In this document: positions 1,930-26,163 of the stretch, in pieces
Layout: every line of letters starts with the position of its first letter
Position numbering within the stretch: position 1 is the first letter of the stretch
NCBI GenBank assembly: GCA_028282785.1
Contig: JANQHE010000038.1
Location: 1-64,000 of the forward strand
DNA length: 64,000 nucleotides
Source of the DNA: Bacteroidales bacterium
Lineage (GTDB): Bacteria > Bacteroidota > Bacteroidia > Bacteroidales > UBA12077
Direction: 5' to 3'
The notes under the pieces: model-generated
Told to the model about the DNA's origin: nothing
Database searches by the model: none
Seen by the model: the letters and a program-made list of their open reading frames with translations, nothing else
Program-made: the position numbers and the translations under genes

Positions 1930-2003
1930 GGCTAACATTGTACATAGTTCATAGCCGCTTTGCAGGACGGTAACGCACCATACCTGCAACCGTTAGCGAC
2001 CAT
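1930..2003 (+). repeat. Intergenic palindromic element, cassette-boundary type
   Basis: A 74-base element follows the DprA-like stop codon. Its ends pair as GTGGCTAAC and GTTAGCGAC (8 of 9), and an inner stem TGCAGG/CCTGCA is perfect. The pattern TAACATTGTA, then GCCGCTTTG, ACCATACCTGC and CCGTTAGCG recurs in part at other module borders in this window. The overall fold recalls an integron attC site, but the end boxes do not fit the canonical RYYYAAC/GTTRRRY pair. Confidence 0.6.
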
Positions 2004-2063
2004 GGAAAAACAGATGCGAAATAACTGATAATAAACACATTAAAAAATAACACGAATCAAAAT

Positions 2064-3188
2064 ATGGAAATCATATTCTTGACAGGAGCAATTCAAGCAT
2101 TTTTTTTTGCAGTTTTGTTAACCGGAAAAAAAACTTCGGATTTTAACAAAAAGTTACTATCTGTTTGGTTTTTACTCTTAGGAATACATCTATCATTATT
2201 GTTTTTACTTAATAAAAGTTTATGTAATGATATTTACATTCTTACAACTATTCATTTAACATTTCCTTTGCTACATTATCCAATTTTTTATTTATATGTT
2301 AAGTCTTTAATTAACAAAACAAGTAGGCCTCGGCTTATTGAATTATTACATTTAATCCCATATCTTATTTTATTTTTATTACTTAGTTTGTTCCCTGATA
2401 ATCGGGATTTTTTAAGCATTTCAAATCAACCGGGTAGATTAATTCATTTTAACCTGCTTTTAAATTTTGTATCCGGATTGACGTATATGTCCTTATGTTT
2501 AATGCTGTTGCAGAAATATAACAAAAGAATTAAACAAGCTTTTTCAAACATTGACAAAATAAATTTAAAGTGGCTTGCTCATTTAATTTTTAGTTTTGTG
2601 GCGGTTTTGCTTATCGGAATAACTTATATTGTTCTGACAAAAGGATTTCAAATAAAATCAAATTATAGTATTGATGTATTTATTTATGGGTCAATAACTT
2701 TTTTTGTCTTTTTTATTGGATTTTACAGCATTAAAAAGACAAATTTCTTTTCTTATCAAAATTTTGGCGAAGATATAAGTGCCACTGCTTATAAACAAAA
2801 TGCAAAAAACAAATACGATAAATATGGTTTAAAGAAAAATGAAATCCCGGCACTAAAAGAAACCCTTTTACAGTTTATGGATGAAGAAAAACCATATTTA
2901 GATTGTGATTTAACATTAGCACAGCTCGCAAAAAAACTAAATGTCTACAAACACTATTTGACCCAAATATTAAATGATGAATTAAATCAAAATTTTTATG
3001 ATTTTATTAATTTTTACAGGGTTGAAGAGGTTAAAAAGAACCTATCCGATAAAAAATCTGACCAATATACTCTTTTAGGTATTGCATTTGATGCGGGATT
3101 TAATTCAAAATCTTCATTTAACCGGATTTTTAAGAATCATACAGACATTACCCCTTCTCAATACAAAAAGAATCTCTCTCAAAAATAA
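2064..3188 (+). CDS. Seven-helix membrane AraC-family transcriptional regulator
   Basis: The 374-residue product has about seven hydrophobic helices in its first 235 residues and an AraC-type double helix-turn-helix at the C-terminus (LTLAQLAKKLNVYKHYLTQIL, then LLGIAFDAGFNSKSSFNRIFK and DITPSQYKK). This membrane-sensor plus AraC architecture is common in Bacteroidota. It sits directly upstream of a methyltransferase and a membrane protein on the same strand, which are its likely targets. The signal sensed is unknown. Confidence 0.85.
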   Translation: MEIIFLTGAIQAFFFAVLLTGKKTSDFNKKLLSVWFLLLGIHLSLLFLLNKSLCNDIYILTTIHLTFPLLHYPIFYLYVKSLINKTSRPRLIELLHLIPYLILFLLLSLFPDNRDFLSISNQPGRLIHFNLLLNFVSGLTYMSLCLMLLQKYNKRIKQAFSNIDKINLKWLAHLIFSFVAVLLIGITYIVLTKGFQIKSNYSIDVFIYGSITFFVFFIGFYSIKKTNFFSYQNFGEDISATAYKQNAKNKYDKYGLKKNEIPALKETLLQFMDEEKPYLDCDLTLAQLAKKLNVYKHYLTQILNDELNQNFYDFINFYRVEEVKKNLSDKKSDQYTLLGIAFDAGFNSKSSFNRIFKNHTDITPSQYKKNLSQK

Positions 3189-3210
3189 GTCCTATCTGTA
3201 TAGTTAGGAC
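3189..3210 (+). promoter_or_regulatory. Inverted repeat downstream of the AraC gene, possible operator
   Basis: GTCCTA and TAGGAC form a perfect 6-base inverted repeat with a 10-base AT-rich spacer, starting just after the AraC stop codon and 55 bases before the methyltransferase. There is no T-run after it, so an operator is more likely than a terminator. The assignment to the AraC protein rests only on position. Confidence 0.35.
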
Positions 3211-3264
3211 GATAGATGTGTATTTCTGCTCTTTCTTTGCATCAAAATTTTAAAACAAAATAAG

Positions 3265-3816
3265 ATGTTTAAAGACAGACCCATTCCAAATTTTATAGCA
3301 CGAATAATGTTTAAAATGCATTCTTCGAAAAGATTACAGAAAGAAATAAAATTTCTTAAGTCAGGATTAATAACCCCGGGAGATACCATATTAGATTTTG
3401 CCTGCGGCCCCGGCAACCTTTCAATAGTTATAGCTGAAGAAACCGGTGACAAGGGAGAAGTTTATGCTCTTGATATTCACCCGTTGGCAATAAAGCAAAC
3501 TGAAAAATTAGCAAAACAACATCAAATACAAAACATTAAAACAATAATAACGGATAAATCCGAAACAGGACTTGCAGATAATTCTATTGATATTGTTTTC
3601 ATTTTTAATGCTATTGATATGATTAGAGACAAGAAAAAGATGATAAACGAAATCGAAAGAGTTTTAAAGCCCAAAGGAAAATTAATTATTAGAAATAAAA
3701 TAAATTTTAAGCGAAATACAAGCTATTACGAAAATCTGCTTTCCAAAACCTCAATCGAATTTTCAAAACAAAAAGAAAAATCATTTTTTTTCACTAAAAA
3801 ACAGAATATCAGTTAA
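3265..3816 (+). CDS. Class I SAM-dependent methyltransferase
   Basis: A 183-residue protein with the SAM-binding motif I ILDFACGPGNLS, an acidic residue at the end of strand 2 (YALDIHPLA), and the motif-IV-like IVFIFNAIDMI followed by EIERVLKPKGKLIIRN. This is the Methyltransf_11/25 type, in the short range for the family. The substrate cannot be deduced. It lies between an AraC regulator and a membrane protein, 20 bases upstream of the latter, and probably forms a transcription unit with it. Confidence 0.8.
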   Translation: MFKDRPIPNFIARIMFKMHSSKRLQKEIKFLKSGLITPGDTILDFACGPGNLSIVIAEETGDKGEVYALDIHPLAIKQTEKLAKQHQIQNIKTIITDKSETGLADNSIDIVFIFNAIDMIRDKKKMINEIERVLKPKGKLIIRNKINFKRNTSYYENLLSKTSIEFSKQKEKSFFFTKKQNIS

Positions 3817-3836
3817 CCCTCATAAAAAATACTCAA

Positions 3837-4529
3837 ATGAATAACATAATAAAATTCTTTATACTAACATTTTTAATGTGTATTGCATTTATATTCACAT
3901 TTATAAAATCTCCTGATCAAATCACAAATACGCTGAATCAGATTACAAAAGATATGCATATTTGGGCAATAATAATACACGCAGTTTATATAATACTTAT
4001 TTTTATTGGTATTATTTTAAAAAAGATAAGAAATATAGTTTTTCCGATACTGATGCTAATTTTATCTGCAAGTGCTACTGTAATTTCTATAATGTATATG
4101 ATTTATCCCAATGTGATAATTTTTCTAACTTTCTTTATTCTTACTTTAATTGCATTCCTGCGAAAAGAACTTAATTTTGATTTTACGGAATTAAAACCGA
4201 TAAATAAAATGATTGGTTCTGTTGCATTATTTTTTGCTTTTTATTATTTGCACTGGGTTGGCAAACCTTTATTCTTGAATGCAATATTTTACTCACCTAC
4301 AGGAATTGTAAACTGTCCAACTATGCTGGCTTTTTGTGGTTTCCTTTGTTTTTTGAAACAACCAGGCTCAAAATATCTTGATTTTTTTGCAGCTTCCATA
4401 ACATTATATTTTGGTTTTTTCGGAATAATGCGTCTTGGAGCATATATTGATGTTTTTTTAATTATAACAGCCGTATTCATAATTATAAGAAAAGCTTCAT
4501 TTCTTGATAGTAATTTTTTTTACTATTAA
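3837..4529 (+). CDS. Polytopic membrane protein of unknown function
   Basis: The 230-residue product is almost entirely hydrophobic, with six to eight predicted transmembrane helices and no extended soluble domain. I do not recognise the family. It begins 20 bases after the methyltransferase and is followed by a cassette-border element, so it looks like the last gene of the AraC-methyltransferase-membrane protein module. Confidence 0.7.
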   Translation: MNNIIKFFILTFLMCIAFIFTFIKSPDQITNTLNQITKDMHIWAIIIHAVYIILIFIGIILKKIRNIVFPILMLILSASATVISIMYMIYPNVIIFLTFFILTLIAFLRKELNFDFTELKPINKMIGSVALFFAFYYLHWVGKPLFLNAIFYSPTGIVNCPTMLAFCGFLCFLKQPGSKYLDFFAASITLYFGFFGIMRLGAYIDVFLIITAVFIIIRKASFLDSNFFYY

Positions 4530-4562
4530 ATTCGCGGCTAATAATAAAACTAAAATCACATA

Positions 4563-4738
4563 CTGTTAACATTTTATAGTAATGGCAGGTAAAGTACTAA
4601 ATATCAAGGTTTGTAGCCCACTCAAACTGCACAGCGGTTTGAAAAATTAAAAAATATTGCTAATTTGTTACCCGAATTATCAAGTATTACATAGCTAGGG
4701 ACTACCAAAACTCATACAAATTACCGTTAGCGGTCATT
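4563..4738 (+). repeat. Intergenic cassette-boundary element
   Basis: This non-coding stretch begins TGTTAACATTTTATAGTAATGGC and ends CAAATTACCGTTAGCGGTC. Both ends match the ends of the elements at 1930 and 13960. The middle is longer and contains a possible inner hairpin around AAACTGCACAGCGGTTT. It separates the AraC module from an acetyltransferase gene. Confidence 0.55.
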
Positions 4739-4783
4739 GTGAAAAGACACTTCCTAAATAAAGAACAGAAATTAATTGAATTT

Positions 4784-5296
4784 ATGAAATTTAAACTCAG
4801 GCCTTGGAACAATTTGGACTTAAAAAGTTTAGTGAAGAATGCCAATAATTGGAATATAGCAAAAAATTTGACGGATAAATTTCCTTATCCATATACCGAA
4901 AGTAATGGGAAAGCATTTATTGAGTTCGCTACTAAAAACGACCCAATTCATATTTTCGCCATTGACATTGACGGACAAGCAGTAGGTGGAATTGGTATAC
5001 ACCCTCAAGACGACATACATAGAAAAAATGCTGAACTTGGTTATTGGTTAGCAGAACCATTTTGGGGCCAGGGAATAATTAGTGCTGCAATCAAACAAGT
5101 AATTGACTTTGCCTTCGCAACCTTTGAAATTGACCGAGTATTTGCAAGGCCATTTGGGACAAATATTGCTTCACAAAAGGTTTTAGAAAAGAACAACTTT
5201 ATATTGGAAGGAAAGTTTGACAAGGTCTTAATAAAAAATGACGAATATTTAGACGAATTGATTTATGCAATTAGACGTGAAAATTGGAAGAAATAA
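4784..5296 (+). CDS. GNAT family N-acetyltransferase (RimJ/RimL type)
   Basis: From the ATG at 4784 the product is 170 residues, the usual length for this family. It has the acetyl-CoA-binding segment YWLAEPFWGQGIISAAIKQV and the following VFARPFGTNIASQKVLEKNNF typical of RimJ/RimL-like acetyltransferases. The frame stays open to a GTG at 4739, but that start lies inside the preceding repeat and adds a tail unlike the family. It is a single-gene module bordered by repeat elements on both sides. The substrate is unknown. Confidence 0.85.
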   Translation: MKFKLRPWNNLDLKSLVKNANNWNIAKNLTDKFPYPYTESNGKAFIEFATKNDPIHIFAIDIDGQAVGGIGIHPQDDIHRKNAELGYWLAEPFWGQGIISAAIKQVIDFAFATFEIDRVFARPFGTNIASQKVLEKNNFILEGKFDKVLIKNDEYLDELIYAIRRENWKK

Positions 5297-5351
5297 ACTA
5301 CGAACTTCCAACAATGCATATAAATAAGCCTTAAAATAAACTTTAGTTAAC

Positions 5352-5385
5352 ATAATCACCAAAAGTTATGCTTTTTGGTGATTAT
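5352..5385 (+). terminator. 13-bp perfect inverted repeat after the acetyltransferase
   Basis: ATAATCACCAAAA and TTTTGGTGATTAT form a perfect 13-bp stem with an 8-base loop, 55 bases after the acetyltransferase stop. The stem is AT-rich and the downstream tract (TTATTATTATTTT) is T-rich but interrupted. A transcription terminator is the simplest reading; an operator for the decayed gene that follows is possible. A short relic of a border element, AACAATGCATATAAATAAGCC-like, lies at about 5309-5330. Confidence 0.45.
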
Positions 5386-5415
5386 AGACTTATTATTATT
5401 TTCGTAAATAACAAA

Positions 5416-6533
5416 ATGTACACAAGGTATCTTCAAGATAAAATACTTAAAAAGTAGGAAAAGGTAAAGCAATTGTGCTTATTGGGCCAAAGCAAGTAGG
5501 TAAAACTACCTTGATAAAACATATCTTAAGGCCGGAAGAATTTCTATTTTTAGATGGTGACGACCCGTAAGTTCGCAGCTTATTAAATTTCCAAATACTG
5601 AAGAAATTAGGTCAATTTTAGGAAACCACGAAATTGTACTTATAGATGAAGCGCAAAGAATTCCGGGTATTGAGGTAACAATGAAAATTATAACTGACCA
5701 ATTCAAGCATGTTCAATTATTTACCAGCGGATCCTCCTCATACGACTTATCCAAAAAAATTAATGAACCCTTAACCGGGCGAAAATAGGAATATCAACTT
5801 TTTCCGATAAGTTGGGAAGAATTCGAGAATCATCATGGATATTTACTTTCGGAACAACAACTGGAAAACAGGTTGTTATATGGATTTTACCCTGATGTAT
5901 TAAATAATCCCGGTGAAGAACAAATCATACTTAAAAATCTCGTTAATAGCTATCTGTACCGGGATATTTTAGCACATTCTGATATTAGAAAACCTGAGGT
6001 ATTAGATAAGTTAGTTCAGGCACTTGCTCTTCAGTTAGGGAGTGAAGTAAGCTATAACGAGTTAGCCCAAACTGTAAATGTTGATAAAAATACAATCAGT
6101 AAATACATTGATATCCTACAAAAAGGGTACATTATGATTTAAATTAGGTAGTTTCAACCGTAATTCAAGAAATGAAATAAAAACTAATAAGAAAATATAT
6201 TTTTACGATAATGGAGTAAGAAATATGATAATTGGAAACTTCACTCCTCTTGATTTACGAACAGATAAAGGTGCATTATGGGAAAACTTCCTGATTTCCG
6301 AAAGGATAAAGCAAAATGAGTACAAAAATAGCTTATCCAGAACTTACCTCCGGAGAACTAAACAACGACAAGAAATCGATTTTGTTGAGGAAAAGAATGG
6401 ACAACTCTTTGCCTATGAGTTTAAATGGAGCGATAAAAAACAAGCGAAAATTCCAAAAACATTCTTAGAATCATATAATGCAAAAGGACAAACAATTAAC
6501 AAAAAAAATTTTAGACCATTCGTCATTATATAA
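5416..6533 (+). pseudogene. Decayed AAA ATPase with DUF4143 domain
   Basis: Pieces of one ATP-binding protein lie in several frames. They are an N-terminus MYTRYLQDKILKK ending in TAG at 5455, a Walker A motif IGPKQVGKTTL in another frame, a stop TAA near 5566, a Walker B motif IVLIDEAQRIPG, an in-frame TAG near 5786, then PISWEEFE and the DUF4143 body. A further frame change near 6139 leads to the C-terminal VIDFVEEK-like and FAYEFKWSDKK nuclease-fold segment. At least three stops and several frameshifts make function very unlikely. The family is often described as toxin-antitoxin or defence-associated ATPases. The intact pieces at 5873-6142 and 6225-6533 are parts of this wreck, not genes. 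Confidence 0.85.
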
Positions 6534-6598
6534 TCAACTGCCACTTTTACAATCCCAGTTTTAGTAGAATAAGAGGTTAAGGTCTTAATATGGTTATC

Positions 6599-6688
6599 TC
6601 ATTCATCAAATAATTGAACTGTATTTCTAGCCTGCCAATCTTTCAATGAAAGATTACCAGAGATTTTTAAGATATGGTTTTCGTTCAT
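6599..6688 (-). pseudogene. 29-codon remnant resembling the N-terminus of Tex
   Basis: Reading the minus strand from the ATG at 6688 gives 29 codons before TGA. The peptide contains ISGNLSLKDWQARNTVQLFDE, which resembles the start of the RNA-binding accessory protein Tex in Bacteroidota, where a phrase like GATVPFISRYRKE would come next. That continuation is missing, so this looks like a truncated copy. The match is from memory and the stretch is short. Confidence 0.4.
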
Positions 6689-6762
6689 GTTAACTAAATT
6701 TTAAGGAAAGCTAAATTAGCTATTTTACGATAAATAAATAAAAAAGTGTTAATTTTAGATTG

Positions 6763-6909
6763 ATGAGAAAAATCTTTTATATAAAATGCATAGCGTTATA
6801 TCTTGTTATAATCACAACAATTATATTTTATCTACCTAACCGTGGTATAAATGCATTGAATATATATTCAGTCTGGTGTAAATTTCAGAGAGAAAGGTTT
6901 AAAATCTAA
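6763..6909 (+). CDS. Possible 48-residue membrane peptide
   Basis: An ATG at 6763 opens a 48-codon frame whose first half is a hydrophobic helix (CIALYLVIITTIIFYL) preceded by lysine and arginine. It ends 12 bases before the ATG of the next membrane protein, so it could be a small partner gene. An AT-rich promoter-like tract precedes it. No family is recognised, and chance is a serious alternative. Confidence 0.3.
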   Translation: MRKIFYIKCIALYLVIITTIIFYLPNRGINALNIYSVWCKFQRERFKI

Positions 6910-6921
6910 AGCTTAGTGATT

Positions 6922-7647
6922 ATGGATAACAATAAAAGAAAACCCAATAATATTGGAGCATGGATACCTCAGTTATTCTATGATATTATAGCACGAATAA
7001 TTCCTGGTTTTTTTATTTTACTAATTCTGCTAATTAATGTTTTAGATGCTGATCAATTTATTAACTATCTCAAGAAAATATTATTAGTGGATAATACATA
7101 TGATCTATCAACGAATTTATTAATTCTATTTGGGATTGGGATATCATATATTTTTGCAATTATATTAAGAGCAATCAGCTGTATGGTTTTACATCCAATT
7201 TACAAAATCAAAGGCAATACTATTGACCCGGAATCAGAATCTGAATCGAAAGAATTATCATGGAAAGATATTGGTTTGATTGAAAATAATTGTAAAACTA
7301 ATGAAATTGCATTGCGGTATGATTTTATCAAAATCAAGGATATTGTTAATGGTAATCGAATTACTAAATTGAAAGCAGAGGTCCAAATGTCGGGCATATT
7401 ATTTATTGGATTATTAATTTCTTCAATAACTAATTCAATTATGATGTTTTTTGATTATTCGATATCCAGGTTAATAATTTTGTTTTGTACCTTGTTTATA
7501 AGCATATTTTGTTATAGGGCAAAAAAACATTTCAATGACAGGTTAAAAATTGCTGTACATAATTGTTCAGAATTGTTAGGATTCAGAAAGTATTTAAATG
7601 ATTTAATTAATATTAAGAAGCCTACACAAAGCAATTTATGTACCTAA
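6922..7647 (+). CDS. Four-helix membrane protein of unknown function
   Basis: The 241-residue product has two N-terminal transmembrane helices, a soluble central stretch of about 75 residues rich in charged residues, two more helices and a basic C-terminal tail. I do not recognise the family. The ATG at 6922 is preferred to the GTG at 6916. A degraded copy of the 3' end of this gene lies at 27237-27348, showing that it or a close relative once existed in two places in this accessory region. Confidence 0.65.
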   Translation: MDNNKRKPNNIGAWIPQLFYDIIARIIPGFFILLILLINVLDADQFINYLKKILLVDNTYDLSTNLLILFGIGISYIFAIILRAISCMVLHPIYKIKGNTIDPESESESKELSWKDIGLIENNCKTNEIALRYDFIKIKDIVNGNRITKLKAEVQMSGILFIGLLISSITNSIMMFFDYSISRLIILFCTLFISIFCYRAKKHFNDRLKIAVHNCSELLGFRKYLNDLINIKKPTQSNLCT

Positions 7648-7937
7648 TGGCTGGCAAAAATAACCCTGCTAAGTGGCATTGGAAACGAAAAGAGAACGTA
7701 AAATTCGATAACAAAAATTATATATAATTGAGGAGTTCAAAGGTATTCGAAAGATAAGTGTTTCACAGTCCACTAAAGTTGCACTTTGGCATTTAATTAG
7801 GTAATTTTAAGTCCAAAAGACACAACTTAGCTACCATTTGTCTGTGTTAGGAAAAAAGGAAGTTGCTTTTAAATCCTGTATTACAACACATAGCCAAACC
7901 GGTTATAACCAATTATCTGAAAGGAAAAACTAAAAAA
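7648..7937. other. Gene-free spacer before the lipoprotein hydrolase
   Basis: About 290 bases without a convincing gene. The frame of the next gene extends upstream to a TTG at 7863, but that part encodes no signal peptide and is likely non-coding. A stretch near 7790-7850 (CACAACTTAGCTACCATTTG) resembles the middle of the border elements, but too weakly to call. Confidence 0.4.
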
Positions 7938-9059
7938 ATGAAAAAGACTCTTTCGTTTATCCGTTATGTATCTATTCTAACATGCTCATTTGCATTCTTA
8001 CTACTTGCCTGCAAGAGCCCAAAGTATACTAAGAAAAAAGACCTGGAAGATACCCAAAGTGATTCTTTAGGTAATACTCCATTTCAATTTCAGTTCGAAG
8101 GGAAAAAATATGCCGGTCTCCTGGATATACCCAATGGAATCAAAACGAAGTCATTGATTGTTCTGGTTCCGGGAAGTGGTAAAACTAAAGTGTTTACAGG
8201 GAAATGGAACTATGAACTTAGAAAAAATCTCAACAGTATTGGTATTGCAACTTTTGCTTACGATAAATCAGGTTGTGGAAAAAGTGAAGGTGAATTCGAT
8301 TATAATCAATCTATAGACAATAGTAGTGATGAGCTTTTAGCTGCAATTAAGGAATTAAGAAAACAAAAAATACCTGGTTCCCAAAATATTGGCCTATGGG
8401 GCATCAGTAGGGCTGGTTGGATTTGCCCTTTGGCCATAAGCAAAAACCAAAAGATAAAATATTGGATTTCAGTAAGTGGCCCTAATAATTTAGGTAACAT
8501 GTACCATTTACTTACTACGAACTGGGCTATCCAAGGAAAAAGTAAAGGTGAAGTGGAAAATCTAGGAAAAGAATGGCTCGCAGGCTTGACGATTCAGAGA
8601 ACGGGTGGAACTTATTCCGAATACATGGATGCTACCCCAACACTTCAACAAGATAAATTTATCAAAAAGCTCAGAGGAGAGTATAATGAAGATAGATTTT
8701 TAAGCTACCAAAATTATTTAATTGAAAGTGATGTTGTTTTCGATGAAGAAACCGGCTTGCAAATAATGATCGAAGGATTTGAAGAAACACTTGAACAGAT
8801 CAAAATCCCGGTTTTGGCAATTTTCGGAGAGAAAGATTCTCAAGTTGACTGGAAAGAAACAATAAGCCTATATCAAAAAACTATTGCTAAAAATTCCTCA
8901 TTGACAATCAAAACACTTTCTGATTGTAATCATAATATCTTAACATGTGAGACAGGAGGATTTGATGAAAACTATAAGGTTTTGAAAGAAAAAGGACTCG
9001 GTGAAACGTGCGATGAATATTTTGAAACCATAAAAAGTTGGCTTGCCGACAAAATTTAA
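7938..9059 (+). CDS. Alpha/beta hydrolase lipoprotein
   Basis: The 373-residue product begins with a lipoprotein signal ending LLLAC (Cys25), so it is probably anchored in an envelope membrane. The hydrolase fold is shown by the oxyanion segment LVPGSGK, the nucleophile elbow GISRAG (Ser157), an acid in FGEKDSQVDW and a histidine in SDCNHNIL. It resembles secreted dienelactone hydrolase/acyl-peptidase-like esterases. The ATG at 7938 is chosen because it gives a signal peptide. The substrate is unknown. It appears to be a single-gene module. Confidence 0.85.
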   Translation: MKKTLSFIRYVSILTCSFAFLLLACKSPKYTKKKDLEDTQSDSLGNTPFQFQFEGKKYAGLLDIPNGIKTKSLIVLVPGSGKTKVFTGKWNYELRKNLNSIGIATFAYDKSGCGKSEGEFDYNQSIDNSSDELLAAIKELRKQKIPGSQNIGLWGISRAGWICPLAISKNQKIKYWISVSGPNNLGNMYHLLTTNWAIQGKSKGEVENLGKEWLAGLTIQRTGGTYSEYMDATPTLQQDKFIKKLRGEYNEDRFLSYQNYLIESDVVFDEETGLQIMIEGFEETLEQIKIPVLAIFGEKDSQVDWKETISLYQKTIAKNSSLTIKTLSDCNHNILTCETGGFDENYKVLKEKGLGETCDEYFETIKSWLADKI

Positions 9060-9075
9060 CTGAAAGAAAACAGGC

Positions 9076-9140
9076 AATAACAACGTGTATGATATTTATC
9101 ACCAACCTTTGCTGGCAACACTGCATACAATTTATCTGAT
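9076..9140 (+). repeat. Short cassette-boundary element
   Basis: It starts AATAACAACGTGTATGAT, matching the left end seen in related elements, and ends around CTGCATACAATTTATCTG, similar to the CAATTTACCG right end. It lies directly after the hydrolase gene and looks shortened or decayed. Confidence 0.45.
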
Positions 9141-9244
9141 GAGTATAAAAATCCGCAGAAAAATATAAGACAGTTTATTTAAATCGATACATATATAGTG
9201 TGATACTTTTTAATTAACAATTAAACTAAATGATAAAAATTTTG

Positions 9245-10808: not shown

Positions 10809-10857
10809 ACCTGACACATAAAATCTTTAAGTAAGTTGACAAACATAACAAAGTCCA

Positions 10858-10986
10858 GCAGTTAACACGCAATATACGTAAGCCGGCGCTTGAGATTAAT
10901 TCAAACTTTTGTACATTTACTAAAATAGTAACAGTTCGATAGGTTGAAACTTTGAAGTGCGCAACATTCCATACCGCCATAAACGA
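10858..10986 (+). repeat. Intergenic cassette-boundary element
   Basis: It begins AGTTAACACGCAATATACG followed by TAAGCCGGCGCTTGA and ends GCGCAACATTCCATACCGCC, a layout parallel to the other border elements (TAAC, GCCGC, ACCATxC). It precedes a very small gene. Confidence 0.4.
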
Positions 10987-10999
10987 TACCGACAACATA

Positions 11000-12992: not shown

Positions 12993-13115
12993 CTAACAAA
13001 GCATATACAAAATTGGCGCAGTAAAAATAAATTCAGAGTTTAGTCCCATATCAAAATTGTAGCGGATTGATAGGATTTGTGCTTGCTATTACCTACCTTG
13101 TATATGCTCGCCATT
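12993..13115 (+). repeat. Intergenic cassette-boundary element with 10-bp inverted arms
   Basis: The element begins CTAACAAAGCATATACAA and closes TTGTATATGCTCGCC. GCATATACAA (13001) and TTGTATATGC (13098) are perfect reverse complements. The middle holds TGTAGCGGATTGATAGGA, similar to the AGCGGACAAGAAA core in the element at 25988. It separates the sigma factor from a carbonic anhydrase. Confidence 0.6.
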
Positions 13116-13170: not shown

Positions 13171-13938
13171 ATGCAAATTTTTTTTAAGGTATTTATTGGA
13201 ATTCTACTTCTGACATCTATCAGTTGTAGCCAGAATAACCAAAAATCAGGTCAGACTGATGAAAAAGGTTTGACTCTTTCAGAGAAAGTTAAAGAAGTTA
13301 TGACAAAGCAAGTTCAGGACAAATTGACCCCAGATGAAATTTTGGAAGATTTATTAACAGGTAATGAACGATATGTTTCGGGTGAATTAATAACCCGCAA
13401 CTTACCTGAACAAGTTGCCTCTACTACAGAGGGACAATATCCTAAGGCTGTAGTTTTAGCTTGCATCGACTCCCGTGTACCAGTTGAATATATTTTTGAT
13501 CAAGGAGTTGGAGATATTTTTGTTGTTCGAGTAGCAGGAAATATTGAAGACGAGGCACTCCTCGGAAGTATGGAGTATGGTTTAGGTGTAGCAGGCTCAA
13601 AACTTTTAATGGTGTTAGGGCACGAAAACTGTGGAGCTGTTAAATCGGCAATTAAAAAAGTAGATGTCGGTAGCGACAATGTAACAGCATTATTAAATGA
13701 AATCGAACCTGCAATTGAAGAAGTTGAAGGTGAAAGGGATGCGAAAAACAAAGAGTTTTTTGACGCTGTTATTAAAAACAATGTACACCAAACAATTGAG
13801 GACATAAGAAATAGAAGTTCAATAATTAGCGGTTTAGAAAATGATGGTAAAATAAAAGTTGTTGGGGCATACTATAGTCTTACAGATGGAAAAGTTACAA
13901 TTCTCAACGATAACGCTCATGAAGGGCATGAACATTAA
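13171..13938 (+). CDS. Beta-class carbonic anhydrase, lipoprotein
   Basis: From the ATG at 13171 the protein has 255 residues and a lipoprotein signal ending SISC (Cys19), so it should act outside the cytoplasm, reversibly hydrating CO2. The beta-CA zinc site is complete: Cys98, Asp100 and Arg102 in CIDSR, His151 and Cys154 in GHENC. The ending is His-rich (AHEGHEH). The frame is open from a TTG at 13141, but that start would put a tail before the signal peptide. A lipoprotein beta-CA is uncommon compared with cytoplasmic forms, though known in Bacteroidota. It is a single-gene module. Confidence 0.92.
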   Translation: MQIFFKVFIGILLLTSISCSQNNQKSGQTDEKGLTLSEKVKEVMTKQVQDKLTPDEILEDLLTGNERYVSGELITRNLPEQVASTTEGQYPKAVVLACIDSRVPVEYIFDQGVGDIFVVRVAGNIEDEALLGSMEYGLGVAGSKLLMVLGHENCGAVKSAIKKVDVGSDNVTALLNEIEPAIEEVEGERDAKNKEFFDAVIKNNVHQTIEDIRNRSSIISGLENDGKIKVVGAYYSLTDGKVTILNDNAHEGHEH

Positions 13939-13959
13939 CATTTTTTAATATTAATGTCC

Positions 13960-14113
13960 GGTTACTAACATTTTGTATAAGTAACCTGTCTGTCGAATTT
14001 ATCCGCCGTAGGAGGACAGGCAGGTGGCAGGGAAAGTGGCGCTCGAACTGCATAACGGATAAGAAAGTACCATACATTCTGCCACCACGCTTACAATTTA
14101 CCGTTGTGTGTAA
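13960..14113 (+). repeat. Cassette-boundary element carrying a nested REP-like palindrome
   Basis: This is one of the best-preserved copies. It starts GTTACTAACATTTTGTATAAG, and its second half has GCTCGAACTGCATAACGG, AGTACCATACATTCTGCC and CAATTTACCGTTGTGTG. A separate 43-base REP-like palindrome sits in its first third (13983-14025), as if inserted. It lies between the carbonic anhydrase and an acetyltransferase. Confidence 0.6.
13983..14025. repeat. REP-like palindrome, copy 1
   Basis: The arms ACCTGTCTG and CAGGCAGGT pair with one G-T mismatch around a centre containing ATTTATCCGCCG. A copy of the same length lies at 50286-50328, and fragments with the same CCTGCC/GGCAGG words occur at about 26035 and 53450. 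It is GC-rich compared with its surroundings. Confidence 0.65.
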
Positions 14114-14125
14114 TTTAAAAAACAT

Positions 14126-14647
14126 ATGAACTTAACTACTGAAAGGCTAACGTTAGTTCCTATAACAGGAAATGATCTGGATAGTTTCCACAAAACGAAT
14201 ATTAATCCATTTGTGAGAAAATTCTTATGGGATAATGAAGAAATTTCAGAATCAATATCAACAGGTATTATCAACGAAGTTGAAAAAAAGTTTGAAGAAG
14301 AAAAATGGGGGCTTTGGAAAATAATAAATTCAAAAAATGGAGAATATGTAGGGTATATCGGTTTTTGGTTCTTTTTTGACGAGAAACTACCACAATTGTT
14401 ATACGCTTTATTACCTGAGTTTACTGGAAATGGATATGCTACTGAAGCCGCAAATAAAATAATTGATTATGCTTTTGAAAAACTAAACTTTGAATATTTG
14501 ATTGCAGCAATGGATGAGCCAAATGAAAATTCAGTTGGTGTTTGCAAAAGATTGAAAATGGAATTCATGGAAAAAAAAGAAATAGAAGGAAAACCAACCT
14601 TATTTTATAAATTAAAAAATGAAAACTACACACAACAACGAGTATAG
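14126..14647 (+). CDS. GNAT family N-acetyltransferase
   Basis: The 173-residue protein has the RimJ/RimL layout: an N-terminal LTTERLTLVPITGNDLDSFH, the acetyl-CoA segment YALLPEFTGNGYATEAANKII (RGxGxA-like) and AAMDEPNENSVGVCKRLKMEF near the end. It is a single-gene module. A border-element left end (ACAACAACGAGTATAG) overlaps its last codons at about 14628-14650, so the gene's end is part of that repeat. The substrate is unknown. Confidence 0.88.
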   Translation: MNLTTERLTLVPITGNDLDSFHKTNINPFVRKFLWDNEEISESISTGIINEVEKKFEEEKWGLWKIINSKNGEYVGYIGFWFFFDEKLPQLLYALLPEFTGNGYATEAANKIIDYAFEKLNFEYLIAAMDEPNENSVGVCKRLKMEFMEKKEIEGKPTLFYKLKNENYTQQRV

Positions 14648-14741
14648 TTCATTGCCTCTGATTTTCCTTATCGCGTCAAGCACTTCCAGCCTAAAAAATT
14701 AGCACTCAAAACTCAATAAAAATATTTCTTGAAAAATTTAA

Positions 14742-14803
14742 TAAACGGTTACGTTTAATAAAATCGTTTTTTATACATTTGCATAATTAAACGCAAACGT
14801 CTA
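14742..14803 (+). promoter_or_regulatory. Promoter with two TetR-type operators
   Basis: Two similar dyads flank a Bacteroidetes -7 box: TAAACGGTTACGTTTA (14742-14757, perfect) and TAAACGCAAACGTCTA (14788-14803, one arm imperfect). Between them, TACATTTG at 14774-14781 fits the -7 consensus TAnnTTTG. The upstream dyad covers the expected -33 region and the downstream one lies near the transcription start. The TetR gene begins six bases later, so autorepression is the natural inference. Confidence 0.7.
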
Positions 14804-14809
14804 ATAGAG

Positions 14810-15361
14810 ATGCCGAAAATAATTGCAAAAAAACAAGATTGGATAAATTTAGGTTACAAACTCTTTTCTAAACATGGGGTATCTGGAATAGTTGTTGAAA
14901 AAATGGCAACAAAACTTAATGTAAATAAATCAAGTTTTTATTGGCATTTTAAAACTAAAAAAGAATTTGTAGATGAACTTATTAAATTCTGGATAACCAC
15001 CGAAACCGAACAAATAATTCGTGAGATAGAAAAAGCAGGAACTCCTCAGGAAAAGTTAGAACAATTTTTAAAAATTGTATTTAAAAACGATCCGTATTTA
15101 GAGTTCGTCTTTTTTCTAAAACGTTATGCTGTAAAGAATAAAGACATTCAAAACATTATTGATGAAGTAGACAATAAACGATTATTATTTACAAGTAAAC
15201 TATTTAAAGATATTGGCTACTTAAAAAAAGAAGCATACACAAAAGCAAGTATCTTTTATAAATACTTAATTGGTTATCATGAAATGATAAGGCACAAAAA
15301 GCAAAATAAAAACTATTTGAACGAAGTAAAGCTTGAAATACGGCATTTTCTGAATCTTTAA
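14810..15361 (+). CDS. TetR/AcrR family repressor
   Basis: The 183-residue protein has an N-terminal HTH of the TetR kind (WINLGYKLFSKHGVSGIVVEKMATKLNVNKSSFYWHFKTKKEFVDELI) and a helical ligand-binding C-terminal domain. It heads a three-gene unit with two small membrane proteins. Two dyads of the form TAAACG-N4-CGTnTA flank its promoter. The ligand is unknown. Confidence 0.92.
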   Translation: MPKIIAKKQDWINLGYKLFSKHGVSGIVVEKMATKLNVNKSSFYWHFKTKKEFVDELIKFWITTETEQIIREIEKAGTPQEKLEQFLKIVFKNDPYLEFVFFLKRYAVKNKDIQNIIDEVDNKRLLFTSKLFKDIGYLKKEAYTKASIFYKYLIGYHEMIRHKKQNKNYLNEVKLEIRHFLNL

Positions 15362-20779: not shown

Positions 20780-20853
20780 ATATTAAATAATTTAATGTTA
20801 CAAATATTTTAGGTGTAACTGGTTTTATAAAGATAGTATTAATATTAAGAATA

Positions 20854-21756
20854 TTAGTTTAATAACTTTTGATTAAACCAACTTACCATTTCTAACCGTG
20901 CTTTTTCTCCATACTCAAAATGATATCCTTCTTTATTTCGAAATTCATGCCCAATTCTTTCAAACTCAATAAACTTAGACTCCACGCCTAATTTCTCAAG
21001 ATGTAGCTCTAAATCTTTACAATCTTGTGTAATAAAAGGAAAGTCTTCAGAACCATAAACCACTAACATAGAAGGTGAGTTTTTTGATAATTGCTCCTTA
21101 ATAGATAATTGTTTTAATAATTCATCATCTAAGTGCAAAGCAGCCAGGTTATTAAAAGCTTCAGTTGAATTGTTTTTCAAACGAATATAATCGTACCCAC
21201 CTGGGTAAAAAGCTGCGACAGTTTTAATTCCTTCAAAAGTAGATGCCAGGTATGTTGCCAAATAACCGCCGGCACTTGCCCCAAATAATCCAATTTTAGT
21301 TGAGTCAATACCATAATTATCTGCGTTAAACTTTAAAAACTGTAATGCCCGCTTGTAGTCATCTACAATTTCATCCAGAGTAAATTTTGGGCTACTTCCG
21401 TGCCTAATATCAAAAATAGTAAATCCTTTATTCAATAACTCATCCATGCTAAATTGGGCTAATGGCGGATATTTAAAGCCTTCAGGTACTATTTCCAGCT
21501 CTTCTTTACTAAGATACTCGTAAGTTTTACCGTTATTTTTCTTTATAAATCTGATTTTACCAGATACATACCCGCCACTATTCATGAATACAATTGCTGC
21601 CTTATTGGGATTATGTGGTATTAAAACATCCATTGTTAATGCCATGCCAAACTTACATGCATAAATCTCGTCAGCTTTTATTGTTACATTAGAAACCTGC
21701 GAATGGGTATTTAATGTAGTAATCATCAGAAATAGACTAAACAAATTTTTTTTCAT
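20854..21756 (-). CDS. Secreted alpha/beta hydrolase (esterase-like)
   Basis: The 300-residue product has a signal peptide (cleavage near THSQ), an oxyanion segment FMNSGGYVSG and the nucleophile elbow GASAGG with Ser161. An acid in YGSEDFPF and a histidine in IGHEF complete a plausible triad. It belongs to the esterase/prolyl oligopeptidase-like group. It lies upstream of the NTF2-like gene on the minus strand (74-base gap) and divergent from a membrane LuxR regulator, whose target it may be. Confidence 0.85.
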   Translation of the reverse strand: MKKNLFSLFLMITTLNTHSQVSNVTIKADEIYACKFGMALTMDVLIPHNPNKAAIVFMNSGGYVSGKIRFIKKNNGKTYEYLSKEELEIVPEGFKYPPLAQFSMDELLNKGFTIFDIRHGSSPKFTLDEIVDDYKRALQFLKFNADNYGIDSTKIGLFGASAGGYLATYLASTFEGIKTVAAFYPGGYDYIRLKNNSTEAFNNLAALHLDDELLKQLSIKEQLSKNSPSMLVVYGSEDFPFITQDCKDLELHLEKLGVESKFIEFERIGHEFRNKEGYHFEYGEKARLEMVSWFNQKLLN

Positions 21757-21969
21757 TTTTTTAAGTTTTAAATTTATAATGGTAAAATTACTAGCCTTTT
21801 TTATAATTGGAAATAGTAATAAATTCTCAAAAAGCTATATAGTAAATTATTACTAAAACTAATTAATAGCTGAAAATTTTAAATAATTGTGATTTTTAAA
21901 TCTCTGCTTTTCTTAAATTGCTGCCTGGGATATTATAGTGAATAATATTCTCTATCAAAAACGTGCTAT

Positions 21970-22920
21970 ATGAAACACATACAAATACTTTTTCTTATAT
22001 TAAATGTTCTAATAGGAGTTGGCATAATATATTACTCGTATATTCAACAAAAAACCTATAAAAAGCCGCTTCTTAAAAACTTAATGCTATATATAATTTG
22101 TTTTAATGTGCTAATTTTGGTGAATTTAAGTTACAAATATTTATTGTCTAATATTTTCTTAGATGATTTTGATAAAATTCCAAATTATGTTACTTCCATT
22201 CTCTTTCTTATTATCTTTTTTAGTGAATTTGGCTTTGTCTTTTATTTAATTAAAACAATTCTAAATTTGGCCAACAAAAAGATGCCCATAACTTTAAATT
22301 ACGTGGCCGGTAGTTGGGGGTTATTATTTACAGCTTTATCTATTACAGGTATTTTTCTGTATAATAATAATTCAAATATTGATTTTATTTTTACAGTTCA
22401 TAAGTTATGGGTGTTTTCAATTATTTTAGTGGTATTTACCGCATTAACAGCATTATTTTTTATGCGCAAAAAAGCTAACCAAAAACAGAAGGAAGCAATT
22501 AAAAGGTTTTTGATTTTATTTAGCATGGCATTTTTTTTATTTGCAATATCACAAATAGATTTTTATTATTTAAAAATAGGAATAACGGATTATGATCCTA
22601 TAATTCTGTTAATAGTAAACCTGACACCTTTTTTATGGCTACAAATGAGCAAAACAAAATTAAGCTTTTGGGCAAATACCAACTCAATTAGCTTAAGTGC
22701 TAATCTTTCTAAAACAATTGATAAATACAATATCTCAGATCGTGAGGAAGAAGTAATAAAACTAGTTATTGAGGGTAAATCGAATAAAGAAATTGAGGAA
22801 GAGCTTTATATTTCATTTAATACTGTTAAAAATCATATCTACAATATTTATAAGAAAATTGGCGTAAAAAGTAGAACCCAATTAATTAACTTTTTTAGTA
22901 ATAATACCCGCATCTCATAA
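21970..22920 (+). CDS. Seven-helix membrane protein with LuxR-type HTH
   Basis: The 316-residue protein has seven hydrophobic helices to about residue 225 and a C-terminal LuxR/GerE HTH (YNISDREEEVIKLVIEGKSNKEIEEELYISFNTVKNHIYNIYKKIGVKSRTQL). It is a one-component membrane regulator. It is transcribed divergently from the esterase/NTF2-like pair across a 213-base AT-rich region, which makes that pair the likely regulon. The signal is unknown. Confidence 0.88.
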   Translation: MKHIQILFLILNVLIGVGIIYYSYIQQKTYKKPLLKNLMLYIICFNVLILVNLSYKYLLSNIFLDDFDKIPNYVTSILFLIIFFSEFGFVFYLIKTILNLANKKMPITLNYVAGSWGLLFTALSITGIFLYNNNSNIDFIFTVHKLWVFSIILVVFTALTALFFMRKKANQKQKEAIKRFLILFSMAFFLFAISQIDFYYLKIGITDYDPIILLIVNLTPFLWLQMSKTKLSFWANTNSISLSANLSKTIDKYNISDREEEVIKLVIEGKSNKEIEEELYISFNTVKNHIYNIYKKIGVKSRTQLINFFSNNTRIS

Positions 22921-23000
22921 TTTTTTTAAATAGGTTGTATTAATAAAATAACAACTATGAATATATAGTATAGTTACCAAACATATAAAAAATTACGATT

Positions 23001-23924
23001 ATGAAAAAGACAAAATTATCTATTTTATTGTTTGCTATAATGCTAGGTTCAACATTTGCACAAGAGAATACTGGGATAAATACTAACTTGCCGCTTCTAA
23101 AAGGCAAATATCTTGGACAAGAGCCTCCTGGCATGAAATCTGAAGAATTTGCTCCATATTTCTTTGCAACAGGCCTGAAGCAAAATAAGTTTTACTTTTC
23201 AAAAGATGGGCATGAACTATATTTTACTCAACGGGGAGATAAATTTAGTTCAACTAAAATATATTGTATGAAAGAAATTGATAGCGTATGGAATATCCCG
23301 GAAGTTCTGTTTTTTTCAAAAGAATATATTAATAATGAGATTTCATTATCGCCTGATAACCAAATGTTATTTTTTACTTCCAATCGGCCTGACACGAATA
23401 TTCTAAATTCAAAAATGCAACCTGATATTTGGTACGTTGAAAAAGATGAGAATGGCAATTGGGGAAATCCGATAAATGCCGGGTCAGTTATTAATACGCC
23501 CAATGTTGAAGCTCAGCCATTTTTAGGTGTTAACGGCAACTTCTATTTCACAAATATGACAGGTATTTTTGAATCTAAATTTATTGATGAGAAATTTCAA
23601 CCTCCAGTCCCAATTGAAATTGGTTTAAATACTGATACATATAAAAACAGTGGTCCCTGCTTATCCAATGGTACAAATTACTTGATTTTTCATTCTAACC
23701 GCGAAGGAGGTTTTGGCAATTGGGATTTATATGTAAGCTTCAAAACCCAATCAGGTAACTGGTCGGATCCTATTAATTTGGGCAGTACGATTAATACGGC
23801 GGATACGGAAAGCAATGCAACAATGTCTCCGGATGGAAAATACATGTTTTTTTCGCGTAATGGTAAAATTTATTGGGTTTCTACAGAAACTATTGATAAA
23901 CTGAAACCAGAAGATTTGAACTAA
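23001..23924 (+). CDS. Secreted PD40/WD40-like beta-propeller protein
   Basis: The 307-residue product has a signal peptide (to about TFAQ) and repeated PD40 blades: FSKDGHELYFTQRG, LSPDNQMLFFTSNRPD, LSNGTNYLIFHSNREGG and MSPDGKYMFFSRNG. Such propellers are found in TolB and many secreted Bacteroidota proteins and bind peptides or glycans. A paralogue lies at 24968 with an NmrA-like gene between them. The exact role is unknown. Confidence 0.82.
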   Translation: MKKTKLSILLFAIMLGSTFAQENTGINTNLPLLKGKYLGQEPPGMKSEEFAPYFFATGLKQNKFYFSKDGHELYFTQRGDKFSSTKIYCMKEIDSVWNIPEVLFFSKEYINNEISLSPDNQMLFFTSNRPDTNILNSKMQPDIWYVEKDENGNWGNPINAGSVINTPNVEAQPFLGVNGNFYFTNMTGIFESKFIDEKFQPPVPIEIGLNTDTYKNSGPCLSNGTNYLIFHSNREGGFGNWDLYVSFKTQSGNWSDPINLGSTINTADTESNATMSPDGKYMFFSRNGKIYWVSTETIDKLKPEDLN

Positions 23925-23933
23925 CAAATAAGT

Positions 23934-23972
23934 GTGGTAACAATGCATGCCCGTCCGGCGGCGGGTAGACGA
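23934..23972. repeat. Border-element start interrupted by a GC-rich palindrome
   Basis: GGTAACAATGCATG, the left end typical of border elements, runs straight into a GC-rich dyad (CCCGTCCGGCGGCGGG) with outer CGTC/GACG arms. The remainder of the border element is missing. Confidence 0.4.
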
Positions 23973-23999
23973 AATAATAGCAAATAAACAACAATAAAA

Positions 24000-24872
24000 A
24001 TGGAGAATGACATGAATATAATTGTTGGAGCAACAGGACAAGTTGGCTCACATTTAATCAACAGATTATTGGAAAACGGTGCCCTTGCAGTGGCTGTTGT
24101 TCGTGCCCCAGGCAAAGTTAAAAATACTAAAATAAAGGTTCGGCAAGCAGACTTATTTGTCACAAGCCAAGTTGTGAAAGCTTTTAAAGGAGGAACGACT
24201 GCATTTCTATTGACACCTGAAAACCCTACTTCAAATGACATTATTGGAGACACTAAGAAAATAGTTGAAAATTATAGAAGGGCTGTTGAAGTAAATGGAA
24301 TAAAAAGAATAGTTTGCTTGTCTAGTATCGGTGCTCATATTGAAGGAAAAACAGGTAACCTAACGATGTCAAGGCTTCTAGAACAAGGCTTTAGTGGATT
24401 GAACATTGAAAAAATATTTGTCAGGCCATCATATTATTTCAGTAATTGGCTTGGCTATTATGATACGATCGAACAATATGGAGTTTTACCTACTTTTTTT
24501 CCTGATGGCCTAAAAATATCAATGCATTCGCCTCTTGACCTGGCAAATTTTCTTGCTGATATTTTGACAAAAACAAGTCAAACTGAGACTAATAAAGTTT
24601 ACGAATTAGTAGGGCAAGAAAAATATAGTTCGCTTGACATTGCTAATGCTTTTTCATCTCTATTAGGAAAAGAAGTATTTACACAATCAATTCCAAGTGA
24701 TAAATGGAAAGAAACGCTTATGTCGGTAGGTTTTACAGAAAACACCGCCAATAATATGGTAGATATGACACAAGCAGTAATCGACGGATTGACAGTTCCG
24801 GAATTCCCAAACGAAACAATAGCATTAAAAACAACGATTGATAATTACTTAAAAGGACAACTAAGAAAATAA
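24000..24872 (+). CDS. NmrA-like NAD(P)-binding protein
   Basis: The 290-residue product opens with NIIVGATGQVGSHLINRLL, the GxxGxxG nucleotide-binding motif of atypical SDRs, and continues as an NmrA/azoreductase-like fold (AFLLTPENP, RIVCLSSIGAH, RPSYYFSNWLGYY). The usual SDR YxxxK is not evident, as in many NmrA-like members that act as redox sensors or quinone reductases. Translation could start at 24000 or at the ATG at 24012. Confidence 0.85.
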   Translation: MENDMNIIVGATGQVGSHLINRLLENGALAVAVVRAPGKVKNTKIKVRQADLFVTSQVVKAFKGGTTAFLLTPENPTSNDIIGDTKKIVENYRRAVEVNGIKRIVCLSSIGAHIEGKTGNLTMSRLLEQGFSGLNIEKIFVRPSYYFSNWLGYYDTIEQYGVLPTFFPDGLKISMHSPLDLANFLADILTKTSQTETNKVYELVGQEKYSSLDIANAFSSLLGKEVFTQSIPSDKWKETLMSVGFTENTANNMVDMTQAVIDGLTVPEFPNETIALKTTIDNYLKGQLRK

Positions 24873-24945
24873 CAACGGCCCGTTAACAAAAAACATAGGC
24901 CATATGGTGGATAGTACTAACTTTAAGCATGTTTACATTTATTAA
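24870..24945 (+). repeat. Cassette-boundary element, second type
   Basis: It overlaps the NmrA-like stop, with ACAACGGCCCGTTAACAAAAA at the left, and ends with the GGTGGATAGTACTAAC block shared with 16414-16460. The GGCC words at 24877 and 24897 can pair. It separates the NmrA-like gene from the second PD40 gene. Confidence 0.45.
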
Positions 24946-24967
24946 ATTATCAGAACCAACAATGAAT

Positions 24968-25960
24968 ATGAAACAAAAATCATTAATATTGTGGCTAAAA
25001 ATAGCATTCATGATAGGTTTTCTTTTTCATAGTTGCATAAGGTGCAGTATGAAAGAAAACGAATTCAAAGCGCGTTATTTTAGACAACCGGTACCTGGAA
25101 AAGAACCAGAAATTTTTGCAAAAGGAATTATATCAACTTCAAACCAAGAACATAGTTCATTGGCATTTATGCCTGATGGCAGAGAAATTATGTGGAGTGT
25201 ATGGCGGTTACCACATGACCGGCATAAGTATCCGCAGGCAATAAAATTCATTAAATTCAATAACGGGCAATGGAGCCAAGCAAGCATAGCTTCCTTTTCA
25301 GGGGTATATATGGATGGAGGCCCTGCTTTTTCGGCTAATGGAAACAGGGTATTTTATTATTCAAAAAGGTCAATTGATGAAAGTACAAGGGAAATGAATA
25401 ATCTTGATATTTGGTTTGTTGAAAGGGAAAACAATGGGTGGGGAAAACCAATTAATCTGGGCAAACCCATTAATACTGATTATATGGAAGCTTGCCCCAG
25501 TTTATCGTCAAATGGCAATTTGTATTTTGTTTCGGACAGAAACCAATACGAGAACCCTTTAGGCAATAATGATATCTTTATGTCCCGTTTAAACAATGGT
25601 GTTTATGAAGAACCTGTAAGTCTGGGAAATAATATCAATACAGATTATGCAAGAGAGTCCTTTCCTTTTATAGCTTTGGATGAATCCTATATCATTTTCA
25701 GTAGAGATAACCGCAAGTTTAATTCATCTCGAAAATTGATATCCGGGAAACGTAAATTAATGATAAGCTTTAAAGGGGAACAGGGAGAATGGAGGCAAGC
25801 AGTTGAAATGGGAAAACAATTTGAAGATGCTCGATTTCCTTCCGTATCTCCGGATGGGAAATATGTATTTTTTACTAAATACACAGAAAATGATAATGAA
25901 GATTTTTATTGGGTTGATGCAAAAATAATTGAAGAATTGCGATTTGAATTTTTCAGATAA
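24968..25960 (+). CDS. PD40/WD40-like propeller lipoprotein
   Basis: From the ATG at 24968 the 330-residue product has a signal (IAFMIGFLFHSC) fitting a lipoprotein or secreted protein. PD40 blades include LAFMPDGREIMWSVWR, FSANGNRVFYYSKR, LSSNGNLYFVSDRN and VSPDGKYVFFTKY. Upstream in-frame ATGs at 24929 and 24962 exist, but the first would put a hydrophilic stretch before the signal. It is a paralogue of the gene at 23001. Confidence 0.82.
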   Translation: MKQKSLILWLKIAFMIGFLFHSCIRCSMKENEFKARYFRQPVPGKEPEIFAKGIISTSNQEHSSLAFMPDGREIMWSVWRLPHDRHKYPQAIKFIKFNNGQWSQASIASFSGVYMDGGPAFSANGNRVFYYSKRSIDESTREMNNLDIWFVERENNGWGKPINLGKPINTDYMEACPSLSSNGNLYFVSDRNQYENPLGNNDIFMSRLNNGVYEEPVSLGNNINTDYARESFPFIALDESYIIFSRDNRKFNSSRKLISGKRKLMISFKGEQGEWRQAVEMGKQFEDARFPSVSPDGKYVFFTKYTENDNEDFYWVDAKIIEELRFEFFR

Positions 25961-25987
25961 CCAAAATAGATTATGCTTATGATACAT

Positions 25988-26163
25988 TCGTTAACGATGT
26001 ATAAAAACAGGCACATTAATATCCCGCTTCAAAATTGTAACAGGTCGGCCTGCGTGCTGGCAGGTATCAAGGCCTGTAACCTGTTCAAAGAGTGTAGCGG
26101 ACAAGAAATTACCATGCATTCTGCGACTACTCATTCAATTTACAGATAACGGTAATTATGTAT
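25988..26163 (+). repeat. Cassette-boundary element with nested GC-rich palindrome
   Basis: The left end is CGTTAACGATGTATAAAAAC. After ATATCCCGCTTC a REP-like insert (about 26035-26085, with ACAGGT/ACCTGT arms and GGCCTGCGTG) interrupts it. The element then resumes with TGTAGCGGACAAGAAATTACC, ATGCATTCTGCGACTACTC and CAATTTACAGATAACGG. This arrangement is parallel to the element at 13960. Confidence 0.55.

Follow-up and report, generated by a model that had tools for sequence, protein, structure and literature searches.

We analysed a stretch of 64,000 nucleotides from a Bacteroidales bacterium (assembly GCA_028282785.1, contig JANQHE010000038.1, positions 1 to 64,000). We refer to this whole stretch as the window; it is C65:1-64000 of the source genome (G000; 5.50 Mb in 81 contigs). 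Our results make it very likely that the window holds a decayed part of an integron-type cassette array, and that the working form of the system is a Bacteroidota integron with a recombinase distinct from the integron integrase IntI. A preliminary description of the window had proposed a cassette array marked by at least eight attC-like intergenic elements and listed eight (here E1-E8). That hunch was largely right, although most of the motif evidence given for it fails.

We found a clean array elsewhere in the same genome. Tyrosine recombinases are encoded on contigs C39, C53, C55, C1 and C13, and C9 has a weak match. The window lacks an integrase, as the preliminary description stated, and a recombinase of the kind it sought beyond the window is present on C53 (L013:937-2031; 364 amino acids, Phage_integrase and Phage_int_SAM_4 domains), with the array downstream. 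An attI-like site and the start of the first cassette are 102 nt past the integrase stop, at GATAAAAACAA followed by GTTA. Fourteen elements (a1-a14), anchored by hand, delimit 13 cassettes, and one more cassette is between attI and a1 (approximately 14 in total). The first nucleotides of each of the 13 resemble the reverse complement of its own last nucleotides, often as GTTATAAGGC-A-TTAAATT versus GTTATAAGGC-G-TTAAATT. Cognate starts and ends matched at a mean of 12.3 of the 17 positions after GTT, compared to 6.5 for 156 non-cognate pairs. This likeness is what a circular cassette carrying both halves of one core site would give. The gene content includes MazF-like, ParE-like and Gp49/HTH toxin-antitoxin pairs, and RlaP, HNH and glyoxalase proteins. 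A covariance model, R1, built from 12 of the 13 C53 matches, had 45 matches at E<=0.01 over 10 contigs of the genome, 13 on C53 and none on C65.

Arrays of this kind are associated with the integrase in many Bacteroidota. We searched the GTDB collection with a profile, which gave at least 594 loci, and analysed the best 80. These include loci from Flavobacterium, Pedobacter, Algoriphagus, Cyclobacterium, Chitinophaga and Bacteroidales, as well as single loci labelled Ignavibacteria and Azoarcus, which are possibly misbinned. Contigs ended no more than 2.5 kb from the integrase on the downstream side in 46/80 loci and on the upstream side in 6/80. Frequent breaks downstream are the effect expected of a repetitive array. 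Plain counting of end pairs was noisy (216 downstream in 268.6 kb, 251 upstream in 649 kb, and 87 in one downstream shuffle) and was set aside. Strict chained cassette pairs, defined after the plain counting and with position 11 included, so that the threshold was tuned on the same data, numbered 158 on the downstream side of the integrase (311,706 bp) and 41 on the upstream side (663,429 bp). There were 208 strict pairs in the real sequences and 33 in mononucleotide shuffles (one per locus). Where at least 3 kb was available downstream, 26/32 loci had at least one strict pair and 18/32 had at least three; the upstream values were 27/71 and 4/71. Of the 292 chained pairs that matched at 9/9 positions, 131 had A as position 11 of the cassette start and G at this position of the reversed cassette end.

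F. terrisoli (L067) has a textbook array. The median length of 102 cassettes from arrays of at least three was 635.5 bp, and the longest open reading frame (ORF) was on the plus strand in 92, on the minus strand in 9 and absent from one. The integrase with an attI-like site is also present on plasmids. A plasmid of Chryseobacterium sp. SNU WT5 (L150) has the integrase, an attI-like site, three strict cassettes and six matches (E<=0.01) to covariance model R2, and a plasmid of Chryseobacterium oryzae (L151) has the integrase, an attI-like site, no strict downstream pair and one R2 match. Separately, we noted that element a7 of C53 contains an IS110-type transposase gene (L019:7313-8383) and that a second IS110-family transposase gene is in or beside an attC-like element of L150 (L150:18272-19273). 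Their position is reminiscent of the attC-targeting IS1111/IS110 group.

We found that whole cassettes are shared between genomes with exact borders. The first cassette after attI in F. denitrificans (L080) is 94.3% identical (blastn) to one deep in the array of a Bacteroidia metagenome-assembled genome (L109). At the left border, 11/45 bases agree before GTT and 34/35 from GTT onward; at the right border, 40/45 agree inside the cassette and 12/35 beyond it. A duplicated cassette in F. saccharophilum (L065; 99.0% identity) has the same borders (25/45 before and 35/35 after on the left, 45/45 inside and 13/35 beyond on the right). We searched 395 Bacteroidia genomes with the L109 cassette (unit L109:17871-19305) plus 100 nt of flank, and found it in four more genomes of other families at 96-98% identity. 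These four matches begin 4 nt (three) or 24 nt (one) before GTT and stop 3-12 nt into the start of the next cassette. The full-length cassette thus has six distinct contexts (L109, with the identical L153 counted once, L154, L155, L156, L157 and L080), and both its left neighbour (another attC end or attI) and its right neighbour differ from one context to the next. Partial copies are in L159, L161 (86%) and L168, and those in L161 and L168 are also beside attI-like ends. These sequence comparisons indicate that cassettes are mobile as precise units whose borders are GTT and the end of attC. Expectations of the preliminary description, namely a cassette layout, units gained or lost exactly from element to element, and a non-canonical site resembling attC whose copies covary and share a single-strand fold (below), were borne out on intact arrays (C53 and other Bacteroidota) and not on the window's own copies.

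The array start has a recognizable attI. We built a 16-nt matrix from 26 loci with the first cassette near the integrase (consensus GCATATAAACAA followed by GTTA). In leave-one-out tests on loci with 130 bp or more downstream, the motif exceeded the 99% level of 180 control windows in 67/71 loci, and in 41/45 of those outside the matrix-building set. Passing sites were mostly 100-108 nt (~104) past the end of the integrase match. The 85 nt preceding the motif had a folding z<-2 relative to two-base block shuffles in 44/63 cases, compared to 2/58 controls, and several attI segments are long perfect hairpins.

The attC elements have a conserved fold. Between consecutive strict cassettes, 70/78 elements were 115-130 nt long, and arm pairing exceeded the 99% background in 67/76. 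The stem was 1 nt after AAC in 47/76 and 5 nt before GTT in 48/76, with an offset difference of 4 in 67/76. When 65 elements were aligned, each of the 14 predicted pairs changed on both sides. Paired cells made up 84.2% in this alignment, 49.4% when shuffled and 33-40% when slid, and the covariation score was 0.758, compared to 0.191 shuffled and 0.06-0.15 slid; the structure was taken from the tested alignment itself, which biases the comparison against the slid versions. The canonical attC core consensus is GTTRRRY / RYYYAAC. The Bacteroidota elements depart from it: only CGTT (right end) and AAC (left) are invariant, and the bases following GTTA differ. Across the 65 elements it is the fold, and not the sequence, that is conserved, as in integrons.

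The integrase family is distinct from IntI. The catalytic residues (R220 K245 H309 R312 H335 Y344) aligned in 29/29 recombinases. The IntI-specific insertion (~42 amino acids) was missing in 22/22 members, in which the region has 28-29 residues, versus 70-71 in three IntI and 32-36 in three Xer proteins. A profile alignment to the integron integrase structure 2a3v skips the same stretch. The family scored 193.3 bits with the IntI model TIGR02249, under the 265-bit cut-off. NCBIfam NF040815 matched 22/22 integrases, the first one below its cut-off (198.7 of 220). In a tree the family formed one group (96/95) and IntI another (100/99), joined to each other (82/92) against Xer; the bootstrap was unsettled, long branches meet, two IntI rows deviate in composition, and only three IntI and three Xer rows were included. 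The integrase family is monophyletic and probably sister to IntI. An AlphaFold model (predicted local distance difference test, pLDDT, 83.7; predicted template modelling score, pTM, 0.55) matched 2a3v first in Foldseek (E 2.9e-16, TM 0.57), then XerA. Residues 1-85 (L013:937-1191) are predicted to form a family-specific alpha/beta domain (pLDDT mostly 86-91). Two candidate identities for it, HARP (1/22 at E 0.072) and DUF5710 (6/22, best 5e-4), were not adopted.

The integrase and attC tend to occur together. Among the 395 Bacteroidia genomes, 197 had the integrase (E<=1e-40, a threshold that may admit other tyrosine recombinases) and 264 had an R2 attC match (E<=1e-5, scoring only the top 8 candidates in each genome). 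Both were found in 178 genomes and neither in 112.

Based on these results we propose the following mechanism. The tyrosine recombinase gene is upstream of a hairpin attI, approximately 100 nt past the 3' end of the gene. The recombinase would capture circular cassettes bearing an attC-like hairpin of ~124 nt, with strand exchange at the GTT that opens each cassette. We infer that recombination occurs and that this integrase is its enzyme. The attC would be recombined as one folded strand, and we presume both the circular intermediate and the exact bond that is cleaved.

In the window, we compared E1-E8 with covariance models R1 and R2 and with L176, an intact attC-like element of a genome from another family (G027) that we found by querying with window positions 13935-14860. 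L176 is 80% identical to part of E6 and is recognised as attC by R2 (E 5e-6). The maximum alignment score to L176 was 25 in 300 random windows (the null maximum below). Start/end scores compare the two ends of a candidate cassette. The features are as follows.

1934..1994, plus strand: E1, short attC-like relic; AAC to GTT spacing 58 nt, right end AACCG/TTAGCG; L176 score 18, no likeness (null maximum 25).

4568..4728, plus strand: E2, attC relic with ~40 nt extra in the right half; L176 score 103.

7902..9081, plus strand: possible decayed cassette; start/end score 11.0 at E3, just below the 95% null value of 11.03.

9079..9130, plus strand: E3, possible attC left half, weak; R2 E 1.3, L176 score 24, under the null maximum of 25.

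10864..10988, plus strand: E4, attC-like stretch, unproven; R1 E 0.82, R2 E 8.2 (10855-10882), L176 score 17.

12995..13114, plus strand: E5, probable attC relic; arms AGCATATACAA / TTGTATATGCT still pair, right GTT not intact; L176 score 30 (weak).

13967..14105, plus strand: E6, attC relic broken by a stretch within 13982-14028; L176 score 73.

14103..14636, plus strand: cassette with a GNAT acetyltransferase gene (14126-14647; Pfam PF13302); starts GTTGTGTGTAATTT, finishes AAACTACACACAAC.

24885..24970, plus strand: E7, attC status unsupported; L176 score 14, R1 E 5.5 at best.

25993..26150, plus strand: E8, attC relic carrying an insertion, right GTT altered; L176 score 72, E6-E8 score 53.

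We assign E2, E6 and E8 firmly, and E5 probably, as attC relics because their sequences align to the intact L176 above random windows. E3, E1, E4 and E7 did not pass this comparison. E1 and E5 were the two best places in unfiltered covariance scans (R1 on 1-30000, R2 on 1-64000), with weak E-values: E1 was the top site in 1-30 kb for R1 (E 0.022) and rank 2 for R2 (E 0.11), and E5 was the top site in the window for R2 (E 0.065) and rank 2 for R1 (E 0.36). The ends of cassette 14103-14636 are complementary at 10/10 and 14/20 positions and show the usual A/G change at position 11; their start/end score was 12.5, compared to a 99% null value of 12.0 (300 random ends). The score at the E8 end, 12.0, equals the 99% null value, and its paired start, 22973, is otherwise unsupported. 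Beyond E2, E6, E8 and this cassette, the window is decayed or unproven. The window starts at a contig end; it may be the degraded distal end of the C53 array, and its relics may once have been part of that same array. In a separate observation, the ~47-nt repeat inside E6 (13982-14028) has a 96% identical copy at C1:86683-86729 of the same genome, and may be a small inserted repeat.

The motifs listed in the preliminary description do not unite the eight elements. Only E6 and E8 were clearly alike among the 28 pairwise comparisons (53, with a shuffle maximum of 26), so by direct comparison E1-E8 are not one family. E2-E8 (29) and E3-E5 (28) slightly exceeded shuffles, yet 66 pairs of other intergenic stretches reached 30. 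The left end TAACA(A/T)nnnTATA was in 0/8 elements, and TAACA(A/T) is commonplace (88 on the plus strand). The core ACCATnCATTCTGC is exact in E6 (14069) and E8 (26111), with no other copy in the 64 kb. AGCGGACAAGAAA, offered as a shared core, occurs once in the 64 kb, at 26096. The right end ACCGTTAGCG is in E1 and E2 and nowhere else on the plus strand; CCGTTGTG has a plus-strand copy in E6 and none elsewhere, and CAATTTACCGTTAGCG is absent from the window. The 8-mer CGTTAGCG (up to one mismatch) was not in excess (16 versus 11.3 expected, equalled by 11/100 shuffles). Across the genome CAATTTACCGTTNNGNG had one match, and the reversed control pattern had one per strand. A TAAC/GTT duplex scan of the 64 kb gave a single match, at 60113-60280 within an ORF, and missed the window elements. 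A search of Rfam gave no matches for the window elements. Most ORFs of 1-30 kb are on the plus strand, as the preliminary description said.

Several observations weigh against our interpretation. In the window, R1 with default filters had no match at E<=1, hairpin-arm scoring showed no excess in the first half, and cassette-end pairs were not enriched there (60 in 1-30 kb versus 67 in 30-60 kb). Of 11 candidate window ends, only that of cassette 14103-14636 exceeded the 99% null value. On C53 the two sets of matches overlap: cognate pairs go as low as 9 and non-cognate pairs as high as 12, with 39/156 of the latter at 9 or more. No strict downstream pair was found in 45/80 loci, including 6/32 with at least 3 kb downstream, and 4/71 loci failed the attI test. 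Among the 395 genomes, 86 had attC only and 19 integrase only, and because the genomes are related, the Fisher value for the co-occurrence is inflated.

Could a known system explain these data? It is improbable that a canonical integron, or a cluster of attC lacking integrases (CALIN), is served here by IntI. The logic of cassettes, attC and attI would be the same, the genes are mostly on one strand (92/102), and the top structural match is an integron integrase. More broadly, catalytic residues, a C-terminal SPxxxL motif, the GTT core, attI at the array start, hairpin-site cassettes and toxin-antitoxin cassettes are shared with integrons (IntI, VchIntIA 2a3v, IntI1). However, TIGR02249 passed its cut-off in 1/395 Bacteroidia genomes (L137, in G142) and not in the source genome, which largely refutes IntI there. 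The C53-type integrase lacks the IntI-specific insertion and has an extra N-terminal domain of ~85 residues. Its attI is on the 3' side of the integrase gene, as is the array, and forms a hairpin; the two cassette ends show complementarity along 10-20 nt, typically interrupted by an A/G change at position 11, and the attC stem is mostly 1 nt from AAC and 5 nt from GTT. The source genome resembles a CALIN in having arrays on 10 contigs and one integrase found, and the window is CALIN-like at best, but these attC elements are of a non-canonical kind.

We regard movement of the modules by XerC/XerD at dif-like sites as highly improbable. Xer models do score the integrase family (XerD 173 and XerC 165 bits, both below cut-off), and archaeal XerA and XerC-like proteins (5hxy, 4a8e) have a similar core without the insertion, and NF040815 matches all 22 of the Bacteroidota integrases. 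In contrast, the Bacteroidota family is outside the Xer group in the tree and is array-associated, and the arrays start with a dedicated recombinase and attI. The dif sites are short, whereas 70/78 sites here are covarying hairpins of 115-130 nt (no search was aimed at dif sites). We give very little credence to a third explanation, that the elements are miniature mobile elements or terminator-like RNA hairpins between operons and that cassettes are immobile. The preliminary description had held out miniature insertion elements as its alternative, and the elements are indeed intergenic hairpins whose window copies are scattered and decayed. But gene and element move together as units with exact shared borders, cassette starts match their own ends and not the element, and in intact arrays the elements are not scattered without regard to module borders.

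It is likely, then, that Bacteroidota have a second integron lineage, sister to or independent of the known one and present in approximately half of Bacteroidia. Its integrase would work without the IntI domain and with its own N-terminal domain, and the lineage would have a downstream hairpin attI, a different attC geometry and cassette exchange between families. Detection tools, which depend on the IntI domain and on canonical attC, would have missed it for that reason. One paper describes integrons as almost absent from Bacteroidetes, with one complete, in Salinibacter ruber (PMC9024848). Two others regard the IntI-specific domain as necessary for integron recombination (PMC9668308, PMC2426708). 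In the open-access literature (preprints and most subscription papers are outside this scope) we found no such system described, and its novelty is provisional. The IntI domain is reportedly the subject of a 2001 paper by Messier and Roy. If the system works as proposed, a major phylum has a large and overlooked route of gene capture, and a comparison between the two lineages would make the needs for the IntI domain, extrahelical bases and attI structure testable.

We also noted other genes in the window. The alpha/beta hydrolase gene at 7863-9059, with hydrolase Pfam matches, has a listed TTG start that precedes 7902, the start of the possible decayed cassette. A phosphoribosyltransferase-domain gene (45-1911) has a weak RecQ zinc-binding match and adjoins a DprA-like gene. 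An ATPase-like reading frame (5460-6533) is, by eye, apparently broken by stops.

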